64,000 nucleotides of DNA from Morinoia aosen (lineage: Eukaryota; Arthropoda; Malacostraca; Amphipoda; Talitridae): positions 24,729,360 to 24,793,359 of the forward strand of contig CM059562.1 in assembly GCA_030386875.1 (NCBI GenBank), given 5' to 3'. Positions 8,041 through 39,929 of the stretch are shown one piece after another (position 1 is the first letter of the stretch; each line of letters opens with the position of its first letter). The position numbers and the translations under genes were made by a program. The notes beneath the pieces were generated by a model. That model saw nothing but the letters and a program-made list of their open reading frames with translations. It had not been told where the DNA came from and did not search any database.

Positions 8041-8074
8041 TATAACCTTATAAATTAATTATTAATTGAACCTT

Positions 8075-8745
8075 AAGGAATGCCAAAATTATTTGGTTTG
8101 AATGATGACATTTTGTTATTCAAGCACACTGCATGAGAGCGGTTTAGTAGGTAGCTTTCAAACCACTGAGTGTCTATGCTGAGGTTTGAAATTTTTTGTA
8201 GAAGTTTTTTATGCTCAACACCATCGAAAGCTTTGGAGAGATCAAGCAATAGCAGGAGAGTTATTTTTTTTGTCCATATCATTGTAAATTTTTTCTGTTA
8301 TGTTAAGTCTTGAGTACTGGTGTTTCTTCTGTAAGCATATTGATTGCGGTGAAGTAGATGTGACTCTTCTAAGTAAGACGAGAGCTGGTTTGTCATTACT
8401 TTTTCCAGTATTTGGGACATAACAGGCAGGAGACTGATTGGTCTGTAGTTTGACGCTATGTCGATATCACCAGATTTGTGTAATGGCTTAATAATGGATA
8501 GTTTCCATTGATCGGGAAACTTTTTTGGGGCTATAGATGTATTTATGATCAAACAAATCAGAGGTGCTGTGACGGGGAAGCTGTCTTCTATACATTGGAG
8601 GCTAGTGCCATCATGTCCTATCGCTTTAGCATTTTTTTAGTGAGTATAAGATTTTTCGCATTTCTGTTACGCTAACTGACTCTGGTCTCCATTTGTTTCT
8701 AGTAATTGGGGATGAAACATCGCTCAGATTTGCACCTGTGGATGT
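8075..8745 (-). mobile_element. Diverged LINE reverse-transcriptase fragment
   Basis: Two minus-strand frames encode RT palm motifs: YRPISLLPVMSQILEKVM, then LLLLLDLSKAFDGVEHKKLL and WFESYLLNRSHAV. The order and wording match the RT of the LINE at 10869-13277, but many positions differ, so this is an older copy or a sister family. The YADD catalytic loop, endonuclease and 3' end are missing. It adjoins the dead Tc1 half on its left without a visible target duplication. Confidence 0.8.
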
Positions 8746-9120
8746 GTCAAACCGATATTGCTTTAGAATAGCAATAAATAATAATTGGTACCTATTTTAT
8801 AAAATTAACTGTGGGTAAAAAACAATTTTTCCAGGTATAGCTTCACTTCCTTAACAGACCGGCTCTTAATGAAAAAAAGCACCCTCAGAACGGGCTAAAA
8901 AGCGCAATGAATAGCTTATTTCTACCGTCTAAATCTCCTTTAAAAGTCCCTAAATCATTTTTACGAGCAGGTTAATTTCATGGCAACGCTTCACCTGAGC
9001 TAGCTCAAAAATTTACTGATATGCACTACATTTATGTAACTCAACGCGCCTCGATCTAAGCTATCTATTTGTCTATCGGCTCACTGTATTCCCTGATGAA
9101 AAGAAAGAAAGAAAGAAAAG

Positions 9121-10868
9121 AAAAACGTTTTATTTCCAATAGAGATGGTACAAAAGTACCATCATTGGTTTTTAAAATATCTTGAAATTAATACACTTAG
9201 ATGATACACACACACGAGTATTGAAAAACTCGTGTCACTAGTCAAAAGAAATGATTGAGGGCAATGAACTCCTAATCTAGCTTAATCTACATTTGATAAT
9301 ACATGTAATGATAGTTGTAAGAGATAACACAATTTCATGGACGATGCATTTTCATTGTGGGGTGAAAACACTTTTGACAGTTTACATGTACATGACATAA
9401 AACTTCGCAATTCTTGACGCCAGGAAATAATATATGAAATCGCTTGTTTCGGTCAATGTTCACAAGTGTCATTTTAAGGAAGCATGAAAAAAAGAAAAAT
9501 ATATATATATGTACATATAAAAATATATCCATATACACACATATGTACACATACGTATGCATGTGTGTGTATATCCATACACACACTCACACACACACAC
9601 ATACACACACACACACACATATATACATATGTGTACATATAAGCATGAGGACCAAGAAGATTATAGGTTTTGTATTTCTGATTCAACAATTTTAATATAA
9701 CGGTCATTAGTTAACAAGCATTTTATTTAAATATAAATGGATGATCGCACAACAAATGTATAGTTTTTACATGAATGCTTTACAATACTAAATATATGAC
9801 GAGTTAGGTAATGTTACAAGTTGAGAGTGCACAGAAAAAAGACCATTATCTCTAGTAAAATGCTAGTTGTCAGTCTAGTACACACATATGTGCACGTATA
9901 CATGTAAATATTTACACATACACATGCACACATATACCCACGCACATATTTACACCTAACTCGTAAGCATACACAAATGCATTTCTATGCATCGAGGCAA
10001 TACATACGCATTCTACAGAGTGTCATACGCATAGCGTGGACACGTACACATTTACACAAGTAAGCATGTGCGCAAATATCAGCGTAAACTAGTCAGTATA
10101 AACCAGAATTCCAATCGAGGGAAACGGAGAAAATATCTTTTATTATAGCATGAATTTTATAAAATTTCGTACTAAAAATAGTGGCACAAAACAGTCTACT
10201 TAAGTCAGAAACATGAAAACGATTGTGGGACGTGAATAAGAAAGAAAACATTAATGTCCTATAATGGTTTCATATTAGAAAAAAAAATCACATGATCTTT
10301 GAAATATGGCGCAAATTGTCGTCAATTGATAAACAAACATAGGTATCACATTATTATAAGCATATAACTATAAGCCGAATAAATATATTACTGCAGTATA
10401 AATGGATGATCACACAACGAATTTATTTTTTTTACATGGATGCTTTACAATTTCATATTAGAAAAAATACATTATCTTTGTAATATGTTGCAGAATGTCT
10501 GTAATTGATCAACACACACACACATAGGTACCATGACGGTCTAGTTTGATGCTTGCACAGAAACGGAGAGGAATGACATAAAATGCACCTTCGACTGGTT
10601 CATCTACTCTAGTGCACACAGTTGTACGTGCACATATACACACCCATATGCGCACATACACCTATATACGTACACACATATACAAGTAAGCATGTCCGCA
10701 AATGACAACGTATAGGCGGTCAAATCATAATACCTACGCATACTTCAAAACTGTTGTTTGATGTCTTGAATTATAAAACAATGAGCGAGGGAGATTGTTC
10801 AGCAATGGAGATACCAGGTAAATGAGATTCGTCAGTACTCATTCAGTATGTTCTGTAACTAAGGATTA
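9121..10868 (-). repeat. Long microsatellite-rich LINE 3' UTR
   Basis: This lies between the ORF2 stop and the terminal tail. It contains CA/TG runs at about 9530-9640, 9890-10060 and 10600-10690, and repeated blocks such as ggatgatc(g/a)cacaac at about 9737 and 10404. Homologous UTRs occur at 17445-19380 (-), 37672-47179 (+, interrupted) and 61207-61722 (-). The long non-coding tail is thus a stable part of the family and not flanking DNA. Confidence 0.8.
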
Positions 10869-13277
10869 TTATTGAGACACAAGATGACGAGTTATTTTGG
10901 CTTTAAATTCTCTCGGTCTTTGAGGAACTTTAATACTCAGGGGAAGTTTGTTCCACAGTAAGGCGCCTGATGTGGACAGAGCCGTCTGCCCTAAGTGAGA
11001 TGAACGATAGTTGACTAAGACATTATTGTTTCTGTTCGGTTTTTGATTGGTTACAGTGGGTGGATGGAAACGCACTATCTCAGCATTGCTCTGAGGAAGA
11101 TATAACGAAGAGAATACGTATTGGGCCTTCTGCATGAGGAGCCTTTCTTGGATAGGGATCCAGGCGAGTTTATTGAGGAGAGGGGTTACGTGATCACTTC
11201 TTTTGAAATTACCGTTGCATACCACCTTGGCTGCAAAATTCATGCATTTTTGTAAGTCCCTTTGAAGGTATTGAGGTAAGTCTCCCCATACTAGGCTGCA
11301 GTAGTCAATGCGCGATAACACAAGGGATTGAATGGCTAATAATCTGGATTTTTCGTCTAGCATACTTTTTATACGATGAAAAAACATTAAAGTTCCGTAG
11401 ATTTTGTTGCAAGTAGTCTCAACGTGAGGTTTGAAGGACATATTTCTATCGAACCAGATACCTAGATTTTTAACTTTTTCTGATGCATTAATTTTAGCAT
11501 TTCCAACTGCAAGAGTAAGATCTGAAGTTTTTTTAATTGCATCTTTGGATCCAAAAATAATGCATTGTGTTTTATTAGCATTTAATTTGAGACCATTTCG
11601 GTCGTACCATGATTTCAGGCTAGTCAGTAAAGTTTCGGCTTTAATTTGCGTCTGTGGTATTTCCGATACAGAACTTGTTATTGCAATTTGAACATCATCT
11701 GCATACATTGAGAACCGTGTGTTAGAAGGCATTGGGGGGAAATCATTAATGAAAATAGAAAACAGTAGCGGACCAAGAATGGATGATCCTTGGGGAACAC
11801 CAAAATTGTTTTGAATGAATGGAGACAATTTGTTTTCTATTCGGACTGCATGAGATCGATTTGACAAGTAACTTTCAAACCATTGCGTGTCTATTCCCAA
11901 GTTGAGTATTTTACGTAGAAGTCTTTCATGTTGGACGCTATCGAACGCCTTAGAGAGATCGAGTAGTAGCATGAGTGTTACATTCTTTTGATCGATGTCA
12001 CTGTATATTTTTTCAGATATATTGAGCAGAGCGTCTTGAGTGCTAGTATTTCTTCTATAGGCATAATGATTTTGGTGGAGTAAATTTGACTCGTCCAGGT
12101 GAAATGACAGTTGATTTGTCACCACTTTCTCCAATAGTTTGGACATGACAGGCAAAAGACTGATGGGCCTGTAGTTTGATGCTGTATTTAGGTCACCACT
12201 TTTGTGCAACGGTTTAATAATGGAGTGTTTCCATCGGTTTGGAAACGTATTGGTTACTATTGATGTATTAATTATCAGACGAATCCACGGTGCTGTAACA
12301 GGGAAACTGTCTTTGATATATTGAAGACCATCATGTCCAACTGCCTTTGTGTTTTTTAGTGAGTATAAGATGTTTCGTAACTCTGGTAAATCGACAGGGC
12401 GTGGTCTCCACTGTACATCAGTCCTCGAGGGTGCAGTGGGGCATGAATTTTCAATTGTCGTTTCATCTGGATTGGTACACACCTCACTGAAAACTTGAGC
12501 CCCTACTTTTGAAAAGAATGTGTTGAAATCCGTGGCTGTTGCCAAGGGATTTGCAAAATTACTTATGCGATCTAAATTTTTATATGGGGCTACCTCACTA
12601 ATGATTTCCCAAGTTCGCTTCGGGTTATTTTTAGCCGTTATCAGTGCCTGGTGGAGGTGAGTTTGTTTCGCTTCAGTGATTTTCTTTCGAAGAATTTTTT
12701 CATGTTCTTTATATCTCTTGTATAAGGTACTGTTTGATCTATTGTTTTTGTACTCTCGCAAGTTAGCTTTCTTTATTCTGCTCATCTCTTTAACTTCGTC
12801 AGTAATCCAAACAGTCCGTTTTGGCTTGGTTTTTTTGGTGACGTAAGGTGCACATTCGTCGAGAGCTGCTGTGAAGTTCTCGTTGAAAATTGACACTTGT
12901 ATGTCAACATCGTCAGATTGCATCATTTTCTGGAATTCGGTAGACCTATCGAGTAGTTTTTCTTGAAATAGTTCTGCTGAATAGTGCCTTTTCGAGCGAT
13001 AGGTCATTAAGCGGTATTTATGTCTTTCCTTCGCAATATTAATTTCACATTCTATAGAGTGGTGATCGGAAATAGAAGGTGATATTACTGTACTAAGTAT
13101 TGCGGTGGGATTATTTGTGATTGCTAGATCGAGGAGAGTTGCAGAGACTTTAGTGATGCGAGTCAGTTCTTTGACCATTTGTGATAAGCTTAGTTTATAC
13201 AATAGTTTGCTTAGCTGATTGTTTTTGTCCGTTAGGTCAACATTGAAATCTCCGAAAGCAAAGAATGATTTTTTTGC
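10869..13277 (-). pseudogene. LINE ORF2, reverse transcriptase part
   Basis: The open frame (777 codons from the first Met, open up to 13277) copies RNA into DNA at the nicked target. In order it shows GDFNVDL (endonuclease, just upstream of that Met), LLDLAITN and SDHHSI (endonuclease end), a basic linker with WITDEVKEM, YRPISLLPVMSKLLEKVV, LDLSKAFDSVQHERLL, GVPQGSSILGPLLF and the catalytic YADD (MYADDVQIAI). A thumb region and a C-terminal tail ending RHLVSQ follow. I see no RNase H domain, as is usual in CR1/L2-type elements. The frame continues upward into the endonuclease, separated only by the in-frame TAG at 13278-13280. Confidence 0.85.
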
Positions 13278-13832
13278 CTAAAGGATTTCTTTGAAGGTTT
13301 CCTCAATGAAATCTAGTGTTAGGTTTAGGGGAGACGATGGGTGCCGGTAAAGGCTGCCAATGATTATTGATTTGTGTTTATTTATTTGCACTTCTAACCA
13401 AACCATTTCAATGCCTTCGCAAACTTTATTCGCTAGTAGTGAAGATGTTGAGTAAATTTCTTTCACAAAAATACAAGATCCACTACCTCGGTTGGTTTTA
13501 GCGCCATCGTAGCGGTACAACACGTAATCAGGAATGTTAAAAAATGAACTTTGGGTTCGTGAATCAAACCATGTTTCTGAGACACACAAAATGTCAATTT
13601 TTTCAGTGACCAACATTACTCTGATTTCATCCAATTTACCATTCAGGCTTCGAGCATTTACATGCTTGATTTTGATTTTACCTATATTAGCACGCTTTTT
13701 AAAGGTAGCGAGGTTACTATCTCGGTGGGATCGTTCAGGGGATTTATCGATTTTGTCTAAGTTGCCCAGGGTGTTTGGCCCAGCATCTGCTATGTAAGAA
13801 AGTCTAATATTTGGCTGGGCAGCGGCACTTTG
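13278..13832 (-). pseudogene. LINE ORF2, APE endonuclease part
   Basis: The minus frame runs IKHVNARSLNGKLDEIRVML, then ILCVSETWFDS, DYVLYRYDGAKTNRGSG and IIGSLYRHPSSPL. These are the N-terminal Asn, the catalytic SETW and the central motifs of APE-type LINE endonucleases, which nick the target to prime reverse transcription. The GDFN motif follows just below the in-frame TAG. The frame is open from the TGA at 13833-13835 downward. Its first 60 or so codons (QSAAAQPNIRLSY onward) have no recognised motif and look like a linker between OTU and endonuclease. Confidence 0.8.
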
Positions 13833-14312
13833 TCAAGATGAGGTAACCCCGGTCTGATTTTTGCCTTGTGTGACAAGAGCACTGTAGTGATCGTTTTTAC
13901 GATGAAGCAGTAGTGGAGGGTTATTATTTGATAACTCTGAAATGGGAACGACTGATACTTTCAAAACACAATGATCTCGTTCATCCAGGACGAGAAGTTT
14001 TTGGCCTGTCACATTCGAAATGATTAGTGGTATAAGGTCTACAGCAGCTTGGTCAAAATGTTTTTCGTCAATGTAATTATCTATGAGGTTTTGCATGTCG
14101 CCACTGTTCTTGTCAAAAAACTTAGCATATGTGCTGTAGTTTGCTTTACTCTCTGTTTTGATTGCAGCCTTAAGGGAATTGTAATTCCATTTTGATGCTG
14201 GTTGTTTTGTAAGTAGATGAGCTACTGCGTGGAGGAGGCAGTGGCCATCGGCTTTGGTGGGAATCAGTTTTATGTTCCATTTTCGTTTCAATTCATCCAT
14301 TGTGGAATTCAT
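13833..14312 (-). CDS. LINE ORF2 N-terminus: OTU-type cysteine protease
   Basis: The 159-codon frame has the OTU signature: KADGHCLLHAVAHLL with nucleophile Cys25 in a DGxC context near the N-terminus, and NDHYSALV with His142 near the C-terminus, at the spacing usual for the fold. OTU proteins are cysteine proteases that usually cut ubiquitin-like conjugates. In a LINE the role is unknown; self-processing of the polyprotein or evasion of ubiquitin marking are guesses. Its ATG overlaps the ORF1 stop as ATGA (14312-14309). It ends at a TGA (13833-13835), after which the same frame goes on into the endonuclease, so it was probably the N-terminal domain of one long ORF2. Either the TGA arose from a CGA codon or the domain is made separately. 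Confidence 0.8.
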   Translation of the reverse strand: MNSTMDELKRKWNIKLIPTKADGHCLLHAVAHLLTKQPASKWNYNSLKAAIKTESKANYSTYAKFFDKNSGDMQNLIDNYIDEKHFDQAAVDLIPLIISNVTGQKLLVLDERDHCVLKVSVVPISELSNNNPPLLLHRKNDHYSALVTQGKNQTGVTSS

Positions 14313-15070
14313 GCGTTCACAAATGGGGCTGGAGACGTTTTTTTCGCACTTTTTTCATCATTAAGAGGTTCTGAGAGGTGCGGGGAATTTACGTTTTTCT
14401 GGCTCTGAATTCCCGTTCTGTGGTGATTTCTCGTATGGGGATTTGCAGAGAACTGAGAAATGCTCGTGTCAATTATATTTTTCTGGTGATGATTGTGCAT
14501 ACCGTTGGGTAGTGGATTTTCCATCGATTGTCGACTGCAATTTTGCAGCGATTTCTCTCTTCATGTTGATTTTACTGCTTCCGAGTATGTGATTGGATGT
14601 TGATTTATACTCGTGTCTGAGAGGGGCTTTTCATCCTCTTCATTAGCATTGGATAGCAATGAAAACCTATTTTTTGTAGGCACTCCGCAGTTGTTTGTGG
14701 CGGATGCAGGAGAGGGCTTGTTATATGAGGGCAAACATCGGGAGGAGAGGGGAGGAGAGGGTTTGTTATATGAAAGCAAACATCGGTTTATGCTGCTGGA
14801 GGTTTCACGTGGATAGGCGGTCAAATTAGAACAATCATTCAACTCATTTTGCTGTTTTGAATAATCATTAGAGTATTCAATTTCTTCATTCAGATCATGG
14901 GAGTTTCTGACACAGGAGATAAAATGTGAAGTTAGTCTCAAAGGTGATTTTAGAGCAATTTGTTGAAGAAAATGATGCGTGTCTTCTCGCGTAACGGGCC
15001 AAGTGCGGACATTGCTGTAAGCTTCATCAACAGGACCGGTTTTTACATTTGCACATCTAATGTGTGTTTC
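14309..15070 (-). pseudogene. LINE ORF1 (unrecognised, Ser/Asn/Pro-rich)
   Basis: One minus frame is open from 15070 to 14309 except for a TGA at 14561-14563. The protein is low in hydrophobics, rich in Ser, Asn and Pro, and has a repeated segment (LSYNKPSPPLSS / LPSYNKPSPA). I see no CCHC knuckle, RRM or esterase motif. By position it is ORF1, which in other LINEs gives the RNA-binding chaperone. No good Met starts it: 14941 is a TTG, and the frame closes at 15071. The true start is therefore lost or further up in another frame. Its stop overlaps the ATG of the OTU frame by ATGA, a layout known to allow coupled re-initiation. Confidence 0.55.
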
Positions 15071-16159: not shown

Positions 16160-17424
16160 AAGGAATTTAAAATTTATCATTGCTTCCAAGGAATAACCGT
16201 TGCAAATTACCCTTATAGTTCCCACAGGAAATTATAGACAATTGCGTATATTTTAGTATTGATTCGTAGCTAGTGTGTAGTGGAGGAGGTAAATCGTGGG
16301 TGTAGAAGCTGTAAAGTGTGGGGGATAAAAATGCTCCTTGGGGTACGCCGGTGTATGAAGGGAATTTGGGTCCTATGAAGTTTGCTATTCTTATTGATGC
16401 TGTTCTGTTGTTCAAGTAGTTGCTTAGAGTCCGTACAAATAGAGAGAGGAGATTTTTTGTGATAGTTTGAAGATTAAACCAGAGTACCACACCTTGTCGA
16501 ATGCTTTTTTCACGTCTCTTAAACAGATGCATATTTTACACTTTTGTACTAGTTTGATGGATATTATTTCGTGCAGTGATGCTAGGGCCGTGTGAGTTCC
16601 TCGGTTACATCTGAATCCATGTTGCCTGCTGTTGAAATGATTGTGAATTGTGAAAAAATTTGTCAATCTGTTTAAAATTTCATCTAGTAATTTTCCCTGT
16701 GCATCTAGGAGGAAGATCGGCGTATTATTCCGCACTGATTTTGGGGATGAATTTGGTTTTGGTAGAAAAATAATTGTTGCATGTTTAAAGCTGTCGGGGA
16801 AGTGGCCTGCAGATATAGACACGTTGAAGAGGTAAATGAGGAAATGTATCATGTTTTTTGGCCGGGCTTTCAGTTGCAGAGGGGTTATTCCTGTTATTCC
16901 TGGTGCTTTCCGTTTGAATATTCGTAGCGCGTGCAATAGCTCCTCATATGATATAGGGGGAAAATGAATTGGATCCAATCTGTTAATATTTCCGGTTCTG
17001 TAAGGGACAATCGAATTTGCTATATTGTTCATGCGGTCTTGTACTGCTTCAATGTGTTCTCTGTCAAAATTTGGTTCGTCCTGCTCAATAAATATTTTCT
17101 CCCAACGCTCTCTGAAAATAGGTCCTTTTTCTTGTGGTGTGTGTAGTTGAGTTCCATTATTTTCTATGTATGGGACTATTTGTTTCAAGTTATCGAGAGT
17201 TCAAAGTCTAGTCACCCCCAGATAGCGTGCTGGCGCGGTAATTTCTAGTCCTGAGTTCGAGTCTCGCGAACTCCTCGTACATTTGTTTTAAGTTATCACC
17301 CATTATCTTCTTGCAGGGTGACCAGAATGCCTTCGGGTCCTCCTGCAGTTCAAGATTTTGAATCAGTTCCTCCCAAGTTTCATGATATTTTCTTTTGTAT
17401 ATTTCTTGTAGCTTGGTTTTGATT
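16160..17424 (-). mobile_element. I/Jockey-type LINE, ORF2 RT part (lower fragment)
   Basis: Minus frames at 16424-17188 and 16167-16532 encode the RT. Motifs are ISYEELLHALRIFKRKAPG and ITPLQLKARPKN, then AGHFPDSFKHATIIFLPKP, HGFRCNRGTHTALASL, DVKKAFDKVW and GVPQGAFLSPTLYSFY. The frame shifts between the two and the YADD loop is not preserved, so it is dead. The linker YKRKYHETWEELIQN-LELQEDPKAFW at 17300-17400 lies upstream in the same element. The remainder of the element, with its endonuclease and ORF1, resumes at 19415 beyond an inserted LINE piece. The 3' end is lost near 16160. Confidence 0.75.
17195..17280 (+). repeat. Short tRNA-like SINE insertion, 86 bp
   Basis: It is flanked by the 17-base direct repeat atttgttt(c/t)aagttatc (17178-17194 and 17281-17297) and interrupts the LINE ORF2 linker. 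Inside are a possible A box (tagcgtgctggcg, from about 17223) and a good B box (gagttcgagtctc, from about 17253) at tRNA-like spacing. There is no clear tail. It may be a tRNA-derived SINE or a reverse-transcribed tRNA-like RNA. I could not fold a convincing complete cloverleaf. Confidence 0.5.
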
Positions 17425-19414
17425 AGAAAGAAAGAAAGAAAGAAAGAAAAACACTTTATTTCCAATAGAGATGGTACAAAAGTACTGTCATTGGTTTTTC
17501 AAATATCTTAAAGTTAATACACTTAGATGGTACACATACATGAGTATTGTAATACCCATGTCACTAGTCGGAAAGGAATGAGTGAGGGTAATGTGCTCCT
17601 AATCTTGCTTAATCTACATATGATAATACTTGTAGTGTTAATTATAAGAAATAACACAATTTCATGGACGATGCATTTTCATTGTGGTGTGAAAACACAT
17701 TTGACAGTTTACATATACTTGACATAAAATTTCGCAATTCTTGACGCCAGGAAATAATATATGAATCGCTTGTTTCGGCCGATGTTCAAAAATGTCATTT
17801 TAAGGAAGCATGAAAAAAATATATATATATACACAGAGAAGCATGAGGACCACGAAAATTATAAGTTTTGTATTTCTAATTAAACAATTTAACATAACGG
17901 CCATTAGTTGATAAGCATTTTATTTAAATATAATTGGATGATCGCACAACAAATGTATAGTTTTTTACACGAATGCTTTACAATAATAAAGAGATGACGA
18001 GATAGGTAATGTTACAAGTTGAGAGTGAACAAAAAGAAGACCATTATCTCTAGTTGAAAAGCTAGTTCTCAGTCTAGTACACACATATGTGCACTTATAC
18101 ATGCAATTACATACACATACATATGCACATACATACCTACGCACAACGCACATACTTACACCTAACTCGTAGGCATACACAAATACATTTCTATGCATCG
18201 AGGCAATTACAATACATATGCATTCTACAAAATGTATTGTATTGTTATTGCCTACATTCTACATTGTGCGATGTTCTGAAATATAGGATAATGAAGCACA
18301 GGGTAATGAACAATGGAAATTCGTGACAACTTTTCAGTGTGTGTTGCTGCTTACAATTTCTAATGAAATATTGTACCGATGTTTAAATTAGATATTGTAT
18401 TGAAAAGATCATTGGTTGATAAGCGTCTTATTTATCATATGTGGGTGATCGCGCGACAAATATATGCATATATTTTTTATAAATGATTTACAATAATGAA
18501 GCGAAATGAAGTATTACGTAGTGAGTAGTGACGCATACACCCATCTACGAACGCATAGTGTGCATAAGTACACATATATACAGGTTAGCATGTACGCAAA
18601 TATCAGCGTAAACTAGTCAGTACAAACTAGCATTGCGATGAAGAGACTCGGAAAAAATATCTTTTGTCACGGCATGAATTTTATGAAATTTCCGTACTAC
18701 AAGTAGTGGCACAAAACAGTCTACCTGAGTCAGAAAAATGAAAACGATTGTTCTACAATGGTTCCCAAGTACAGAAAATCTTAAGTGACGTTGTTGTAAC
18801 ATACTTTAGAGCGTAAGAGATGGAATGATAATATACACTACACTAGCTTAATAAGAGCATTTTTGGACGTGAAATAAGAAAGAAGACATGAATGCCCTAT
18901 ACGGGTTTCATATTAGAAAAAAAATCACATTATCTTTCTAATATGGTGCAGAATGTCTGCAATTGATAAACACACACACACACATAGGTACCATGACGGT
19001 CTTGTTTGATGCTTGCACAAAAACGAAGAGGAAAGACAAAAAATGCGTCCTTCAGCTGGTTTATCTAGTCCAGTGCACACAGGTGTACATGCACATACAT
19101 GCACATACAGGTGTACATGCATAAGCGCACATACACCCATATACGTACACACATATACAAGTAAGTATGTTTGTAAATGGCAGCGTATAGGCGATCAAAT
19201 CATAGTACCTACGCATACCTAAAAACTGTTGTGTAATGTCTTAAATCATAAAACAATGAGCAAGGGAGATTGTTCAGCAATGGAGATACCACGCAAATGA
19301 GATTCATCAATACTTACTCCGTATGTTCTGTAACTATGAATTATTTTTGAGACGCAAGATGACGAGTTATTTTGGCTTTAAATTCTTTTGGTCTTTGAGG
19401 GATTTTAACACTCG
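17425..19414 (-). mobile_element. OTU-LINE family, 5'-truncated copy (3' UTR only)
   Basis: The piece starts with a (TTTC)n tail at 17425-17450 read on the minus strand. It follows the 3' UTR of the element at 9099-10868 block by block, and stops about 60 bases inside the ORF2 end (ttttggctttaaattctt... at 19371). It split an I/Jockey LINE whose parts lie at 16160-17424 and 19415-20985. Differences from the other copy are mostly single bases and microsatellite length. 5' truncation is the normal product of LINE insertion. Confidence 0.8.
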
Positions 19415-36403: not shown

Positions 36404-37671
36404 TCTTATATCATACCTCTTGTGCCAAAAATCCTAAGAGTTTTGTGCTCTAAGTGTTACAGGATGTTATTGAAGGTATGATTGTTAGTTCATTTCTGAA
36501 AATTGTCTGAATAGTCTAGAGTACCAATTCCTCAAAATTCACTCCAAAATTACCCTGGTTCCCTGGGTTGGAGTATTAGTTCAACCTGCAAATTCCTGTT
36601 GTCATTTTTGCTGCCTATTCTCCTCTCACACATTGTCTTTTTTAGGGTTTACTGCCAGAAGTGTTGTTGTTCAATATAACCAATAGGATGCCAAAATATT
36701 CTGTTATTCTGCGCCATCCTTGTCATTGTTGCCTTGCTAGCCTCCGAGTAAGCTTTATTGTGCTCTCAACTGGTACGATTTTTAGCATTGTGCCTTCAGG
36801 TGTTCCTGATTGGCTAGGTAAATTAATTCCCCTCTGGATAACCTAGAATAACCTTAAGGTTCTTGTATTACTCAATTGTTAGCTTAAGAGTAACACTTAA
36901 TTCAGTCTTAGATACTCATAACTTAGCTGTTGAAGCTCTGTGGTGCCTTCTGATATTTTTCAAATGGGATAAGCTAGCATTGATCCAGCTAACCTTAGAC
37001 TTAGTATGGCTAGTGAAGTAAGTCCTTGACTGTTTGCTTAGTGTAAATTGTTCTAATATAGCAGCTGCCAGTCCTAAGGCACTTGTGTATTCTATTAAGT
37101 GTACCCTAGAGTATTTGGCTGCAACCTCCTTATATAAAATCAGCCAAGCTTTCTTACGACGACTTATCCAGTAACGACCCTGTATCTCGTAGACTGACCT
37201 TGCACTCCATGCAGGAGATAGTCAAAAGATATGCCCCGCTCACTTCTAGTAGTACTCTGAGCATAGTCTTGGGTTAGAGAAATGGGAAAAATTGCACCTG
37301 GGAATTTCATGATTGTCCATACGATTTACTCAATTGTGCGATTGCCGTCGGCCGTATTCGGGCGCCAGAATACGGTTGAGGTACCTGCATAGAGACTCCT
37401 CGATCCGAGGCAATCTTGTGAATCAGCAGTAGCTCGCAGCCTGGCTTGTGCAGCGATTGTTCTCCCTCTTTAACTGTGCTTGAACAAGTGACCCAACTCC
37501 TCTCTCCCATACAGAAGAACCTACGAAGCCAACACACAACACAACCACCTAGTCCTCAATCCAAGCCATTGAGCCCAAAAATCTTGACCTTCCTCAGACC
37601 CACTTTAGGAGTCCCGCACCTTCACTCAGCCACACGGCTCCACACGCAGTAACCCCACCAGGTACTGCCTC
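36404..37671. other. Unassigned sequence
   Basis: No family motif or long frame. Short open stretches near 37310-37650 look like chance. Confidence 0.4.
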
Positions 37672-37902
37672 CTGGTATCTCCATTGCTGAACAATCTCCC
37701 CCGATCATTGTCATGAAATTCAAGACATCACACAACAGTTTTGAAGTATGCGTAGGTATTATGATTTGATTGCCTAAACGCTGCCATTTGCAAACATGCT
37801 TACTTGTATATGTGTGTATGTACACCTGTGTGCACTAGAGTAGATAAACCAGTCGAAGGTTGCATTCTATGTCATCCCTCTCCGTTTCTTTGCAAGCATT
37901 AA

Positions 37903-39383: not shown

Positions 39384-39929
39384 TTAAACTAGACCGTCAT
39401 GGTACCTATATGTGCGTGTGTTTATCAATTGCAGACATTCTGCACCATATTACATAATGTGATTTTTCAAATGTGATTTTTTTCTATTATGAAATTGTAA
39501 AGCATCCATGTAAAAATAAAACAATAAATTCGTTGTGTGATCATCCATTTATACTGCAGTAATATGCTTATAATGCTTATAATTATATGCTTATAATAAT
39601 GTGATACCCATGTACATCTGTAGGTTTATTAATTGCCGACAATTTGCGCCATATTTCGAAGATAATGTTATTTTTTTCAAATATGAAACCCTTATAGGAC
39701 ATTAATATTTTCTTTCTTATTCACGTCCCACAATCGTTATCATGTTTCTGACTTAGGTAGACTGTTTTATGCCACTAATTTCGGTACGGAAATTTTATAA
39801 AATTCATGCCATAATAAAAGATACTAGCAGGACCCGGCTAAATTCCACGGACAATGTCATCAATAAGCTTTGGAGACTCGTGAGAAAATTCTGTCGACAT
39901 TATTTACCAAATTTGAACATAACATATTC

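Follow-up and report, generated by a model that had tools for sequence, protein, structure and literature searches.

The locus raises two linked questions: where an OTU-type cysteine protease domain belongs within a LINE retrotransposon, and how the endonuclease and reverse transcriptase (RT) encoded behind it are produced. They are considered here for a window of 64,000 nucleotides from Morinoia aosen, the whole stretch of DNA that was analyzed, in which the element lies on the minus strand. The element belongs to the non-LTR (LINE) retrotransposons and has an APE-type endonuclease, and a preliminary description had placed its protease domain at the start of ORF2.

Organization of the Window Copy

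The span 14312-10869 translates to 1148 positions with two internal stops, one after residue 159 and the other within the endonuclease. Its first 159 residues (14312-13836, minus strand) hold the DGHC block with C25 and the NDHYSAL block with H142, as the preliminary description had reported. That description also had a single frame running through OTU domain, endonuclease, and RT; the common register was read correctly, but the frame is interrupted by a UGA at 13835-13833 and a TAG at 13280-13278. The parts of the copy are given below, L045 and L046 being relatives from the same family.

14339..15052, minus strand: ORF1 remnant, from about residue 482 (tblastn of L046 ORF1 residues 482-719, 95% identity)
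13836..14354, minus strand: open frame of 173 codons, stop to stop, C-terminal part of ORF1 (tblastn of ORF1 residues 715-887, 96%)
13836..14312, minus strand: predicted OTU cysteine-protease domain of 159 residues with C25 and H142 (Pfam OTU, predicted structure and fold match, invariant D22/C25/H142)
13833..13835, minus strand: UGA stop of ORF1, followed by CAA, the proposed readthrough site (kept in family copies)
13659..13832, minus strand: linker of 58 codons lacking ATG, from the UGA to the NARSL motif (NARSL at codon 59, first ATG at codon 73)
13281..13832, minus strand: first open piece of ORF2, linker and N-terminal APE-type endonuclease (open frame; Pfam endonuclease families in the intact L046)
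13278..13280, minus strand: TAG within the endonuclease, a defect of the window copy (L045 and L046 open there)
10869..13277, minus strand: remaining endonuclease, RT, and ORF2 C-terminus with stop (open frame of 802 codons; RVT_1 in L046 ORF2 at 3.7e-38)
10232..10868, minus strand: downstream non-coding part, matching L046 to the end of the compared stretch (blastn of 15052-10232 at 98%)

Position 10232 marks the end of the stretch compared with L046 and is not a mapped 3' end of the element. The copy is 5'-truncated at 15052, where the match starts at ORF1 residue 482, and the ORF1 remnant at 14339..15052 is read in a frame shifted by one relative to the OTU frame, which is preceded by a run of seven A. 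Since the copy is truncated, its ORF1 pieces are mutually out of frame, and its endonuclease contains a TAG, the anatomy of the element was taken from relatives.

A second place, on contig C7 of genome G000 (26129188-26129523 and 26134725-26135201), matches window positions 8301-8636 and 13836-14312 at 100% with near-equal spacing; lying about 1.39 Mb off, it represents either a recently duplicated segment or a duplication introduced by the assembly. Arrays of the repeat TTAGG (15,492 overlapping matches in all) occur on contigs C1 and C2 of this genome, also far from contig ends, e.g., at C1:29645251. Such repeats and Chitin_bind_4 domains, which the Pfam profile matched 115 times, are typical of arthropods and point to an arthropod host; a mollusc haemocyanin profile had no match in the host genome and none in the control genomes.

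Organization of Related Copies

Loci L001-L048 were fetched and compared with the window (L029 is the window itself, and L001 equals L028); they were picked mostly for their OTU score, for resemblance to the window, or because they had long open frames, rather than at random, and only two families were encountered, the window's own and a sister family. In the window's family, the ORF1 frame of L045-L048 spans 896 codons and ends with the OTU domain and then UGA; counted from the first ATG, it comprises 887 aa in L045 and L046, and among these four loci ORF2 is intact (988 aa) only in L046. In the sister family, L018 has an ORF1 of 796 aa and an ORF2 of 987 aa, and ORF2 is intact in L018, L021, L026, and L027 among the 20 fetched copies. 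The Pfam families Exo_endo_phos, Exo_endo_phos_2, and RVT_1 exceed their cut-offs in the ORF2 of both L046 and L018.

Where relatives have a long ORF1, the OTU domain forms its last ~150 residues and thus does not begin ORF2; the placement given in the preliminary description was rejected, as the UGA closes the OTU frame. In both families, ORF2 starts at the codon right after this UGA, in the register of ORF1. Among the best 150 of 3993 candidates, the only ones scored, OTU frames of 890-901 aa were present in 35 by hand count, and RT frames of 985-987 aa were likewise counted by hand in 34 of 150 best candidates. The longest frame in 450 scored rows of best candidates measures 1,084 aa, as against the ~1,780-1,880 aa of a fused frame, so that no ORF1-ORF2 fusion is encoded in those 450.

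The window also contains, at 8064-8748, 18873-19413, 37671-37902, 39386-39724, and 2345-2658, fragments that belong to one or other of the two families or to elements related to them. On the minus strand, 16167-17200 holds the degraded RT of another LINE, one that is more distantly related. In L027, the region upstream of the OTU domain reflects a truncated sister-family copy inside the endonuclease-like frame of another LINE, which cuts off ORF1 and yields a chance chimeric frame of 884 aa. Adjoining the LINE in L017 (2-3280, minus-strand reading) is a 1093-aa open frame ending STRARKPVVRMDL, perhaps another retroelement. A search of viral contigs with the sister-family ORF2 returned no relatives.

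Identity of the OTU Domain

The Pfam OTU profile matches the sister-family ORF1 at E 1.9e-7 and 32.1 bits, above the cut-off of 23.3, and the 159 residues of the window at E 4.3e-4 and 21.2 bits, just below it. In a search of the host genome with the OTU profile, the best 150 of 1842 candidates were all above the cut-off. The AlphaFold2 model of the domain (mean pLDDT 75) gave 37 matches in the PDB at E <= 0.001, and all 37 are OTU-family proteases, at 11-20% identity. Sequence searches of solved structures with the window domain alone gave two weak matches (E 0.22 and 0.75); with a profile of 14 copies, the distinct sequences matched at E <= 1 numbered seven. OTU proteins account for six of these (best E 0.016), and the second-ranked match was an unrelated protein at E 0.031.

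The presence of the domain in other copies of the family was borne out, with 96-100% identity among the best 150 of 3993 candidate places. All of 14 sequences compared have D22, C25, and H142, with the two families 50-52% identical to each other; in OTU enzymes, the D-G-x-C motif and the histidine supply the catalytic residues. The assignment of a predicted OTU-type cysteine protease to an APE-type LINE, first made in the preliminary description, is thus supported by profile, modeled fold, and conservation across two diverged families.

Length Variation Ahead of the OTU Domain

In the window's family, a run of A that immediately precedes 14354 on the minus strand, seven in the window copy, sets the frame in which the domain is read. 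With eight A, the OTU domain continues the frame of ORF1; with seven, ORF1 ends ten codons on in another frame, and the domain is left in a separate frame of 173-174 codons. Copies with exact flanks comprise 126 with seven A and 136 with eight A genome-wide (126/262 short), so that about half of them do not encode a fused ORF1-OTU protein. Among the 20 window-family loci that were read, the domain is out of frame in 12 and in frame in 8, and causes other than run length also occur (e.g., in L043, L038, and L034).

On a tree built from the remaining sequence of these copies, the frame state changes 7 times, much as with shuffled labels (mean 6.5); 414 of 500 shuffles were as low as the observed value, and grouping the out-of-frame copies in a single clade is rejected (p-AU 2e-97). 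However, good support is confined to 3 of the 17 inner branches of this tree, which by themselves require no more than 2 changes, and the branches of two rows are long, perhaps owing to host flank. Being scattered over the tree, the state of the run seems to change often. The variation fits slippage in transcription or reverse transcription, homopolymer mutation, or assembly errors, and the fused ORF1-OTU protein could be one that is not needed in cis in every copy.

The UGA Junction

The junction was read in those 48 of the 49 sequences (the window and L001-L048) in which the search motif is present, representing 46 distinct places; L025 was dropped. The first stop after the OTU domain is UGA in all 48, followed by CTA in 27, CAA in 20, and TAA in 1, with UGA-CAA characteristic of the window's family and UGA-CUA of the sister family. 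NARSL, a conserved endonuclease motif, is in frame in 42 of the 48 loci, the remaining 6 being shifted or rearranged ahead of it. Each of these 42 has its first ATG in the ORF2 frame after the motif, usually at codon 73 versus 59 or 64 versus 56, so no AUG in this frame precedes NARSL.

Genome-wide, UGA occupies 564 of 574 exactly flanked junctions of the sister family, and the window's family has 290 such junctions, among which 100 listed ones comprise 98 UGA, 1 UAA, and 1 UGU; these counts reflect what replicating copies carried and not selection as such. The shared UGA-C alone carries little weight, given that ORF1 could be ended by any stop, and the stronger argument is the cross-family one: an in-frame UGA-C at the same place, with no AUG between it and NARSL, despite extensive divergence. 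Silent sites between the two families are saturated, third codon positions agree in 44-49% in the OTU, endonuclease, and RT regions, and the linker protein is 24% identical. The linker dN/dS of ~0.63 between families derives from 45 codons; within the sister family, the changes are too few to be informative.

A single in-frame stop between two frames of the same register, the second without a usual start codon, suggests occasional readthrough. We propose that the element may be a gag-stop-pol-like LINE that makes ORF1p-OTU together with a minor readthrough fusion to the endonuclease-RT, with the OTU domain acting as a deubiquitinase-like enzyme; this reading has slightly better than an even chance. 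The seven-A copies of the window's family, in which ORF1 and the OTU domain are in different frames, count against it. Most ribosomes would halt at the UGA and release ORF1p-OTU, and a minority would read through it to produce ORF1p-OTU-endonuclease-RT, leaving ORF1p-OTU in excess of the enzyme, as in the gag-pol of MuLV. UGA CUA is a derived consensus for high readthrough in human cells (PMC4359377); the sister family fits this consensus in full, and the UGA CAA of the window's family fits UGA-C only. As for RNA structure after the UGA, none of six folds was stabler than its shuffles (z -0.17 to -1.21). A 7-bp stem in the window's family was rejected as a stimulator because its stability (z -0.6 to -1.2) does not exceed that of shuffled sequence; the sister family has no stem of note. 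Such a structure is not present at every readthrough site.

LINEs are known to obtain a second protein by reinitiation, 2A sequences, or frameshifting, and the yeast LINE Zorro has an in-frame stop. The main rival to readthrough is non-AUG initiation within the linker, which, together with termination-reinitiation, would have ORF2 translated separately and produce no fusion protein. Reinitiation is used by the LINE SART1 and, by proposal, by L1 (PMC5972666). The linker of the window's family has a near-cognate CTG at codon 22 in good context (A at -3, G at +4), and that of the sister family has one at codon 43, either of which might serve for non-AUG initiation. However, the two positions differ between the families, no in-frame AUG precedes NARSL, and reinitiation needs no common register in both families, although shared descent could keep it. 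We consider separate translation rather unlikely.

UGA is also the codon for selenocysteine, and editing can turn UGA into UGG. Removal of the stop from the RNA by editing or splicing, or its decoding with the help of a SECIS element, would equally join the two frames. Selenocysteine decoding was rejected, as Rfam matched L018 and L046 11 times at E <= 1 and none of these matches is a SECIS; explanations of this class as a whole appear very improbable.

Constraint and Predicted Role of the OTU Domain

Between the families, the OTU protein is 52% identical with a dN/dS of ~0.18, a rough value because dS reaches 2.1; by comparison, the ORF1 N-terminus and spacer are 29-30% identical, and other parts of ORF1 59% and 39%. 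Within the sister family, five pairwise OTU dN/dS values range from 0.37 to 0.81 on 7-15 changes each and neither show nor exclude constraint.

The OTU domain might alternatively be a binding or structural domain devoid of activity, or be dispensable. In about half of the exactly flanked window-family copies, the length of the A-run cuts the domain off from ORF1; these copies lie dispersed over the tree, and the domain of this family scores under the Pfam cut-off. Nevertheless, invariance of the presumed catalytic residues in 14 of 14 sequences at 50-52% identity argues against this alternative, which we regard as improbable.

Most OTU enzymes act on ubiquitin chains. Judged from sequence, the domain is probably a deubiquitinase of the ORF1p particle or acts on a ubiquitin-like tag; with less certainty, it may shield the ORF1p-RNA particle, and the enzyme that is made in small amounts, against the ubiquitin system of the host. 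The place of the domain, exactly between ORF1p and endonuclease in the predicted fusion, would also suit a protease that, as in retroviruses, processes the readthrough product, here by cutting it between the OTU domain and the endonuclease. However, the linker in which the cut would fall is 24% identical between families, and inspection by eye shows no common motif; this is a slight argument against a specific cleavage site there, and the usual ubiquitin-chain substrates of OTU enzymes likewise speak against processing; this role is accordingly given a low probability.

An OTU domain of the deubiquitinase type, if fixed in ORF1p, would suggest that ubiquitin-based restriction of LINE particles is strong enough to provoke an answer. 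Additionally, the in-frame UGA retained in both high-copy families, in one of them within a published high-readthrough context, provides a case that can be tested with reporters. The UGA that the preliminary description read across is, in our view, of greater interest.

Comparison with Known Elements

The OTU-ORF1/UGA layout was not found by title or the start of the abstract in the open-licence part of PubMed Central, a scope that leaves out Repbase and most subscription papers, so that the layout may be in print elsewhere. Dualen/RandI LINEs carry an OTU-type protease, as does the window LINE. These elements have an RLE besides the APE endonuclease (PMC4640811), whereas Pfam matched neither RLE (E <= 0.1) nor RNase H in the ORF2 of L046 and L018; the element is therefore not filed under Dualen/RandI. 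NeSL and Utopia likewise combine a cysteine protease with a LINE, but theirs is Ulp1-like and N-terminal and belongs to RLE-type elements (PMC4640811).

ZfL2-1, a CR1-clade LINE with an esterase-type ORF1p, resembles the window LINE in having two ORFs and an ORF1p with no recognized RNA-binding domain (PMC3905857). ORF1 here ends in the OTU domain, and a search for an SGNH esterase domain in it gave no Pfam or PDB-profile match and no fold match at E <= 0.001 for a model of pLDDT 50.5. Helentrons, eukaryotic mobile elements as well, are described in PMC4067079 and PMC6431247 with an OTU-like cysteine protease and an AP endonuclease; unlike the window LINE, they are rolling-circle DNA elements with Rep/helicase and without reverse transcription.

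With respect to expression, LINEs bearing 2A sequences show translational recoding in a LINE (PMC4981915), as is proposed here; 2A recoding itself was rejected, since the forward frames of L018 and L046, read in element orientation, contain no NPGP. A likeness also exists to the gag-pol of MuLV, with a UAG between two same-register frames (PMC5009743), and to Candida Tca2, with a UGA in this position (PMC2194720), each having, like the window LINE, one stop between frames of the same register. They are retroviruses or LTR elements with a stimulatory pseudoknot, whereas no stimulator was found in the window LINE. The chances appear evenly balanced that a LINE has independently reached the retroviral gag-stop-protease-pol plan, with the A-run perhaps acting as a second switch in the window's family, where eight-A RNA would give ORF1p with the OTU domain and seven-A RNA an OTU-less ORF1p.
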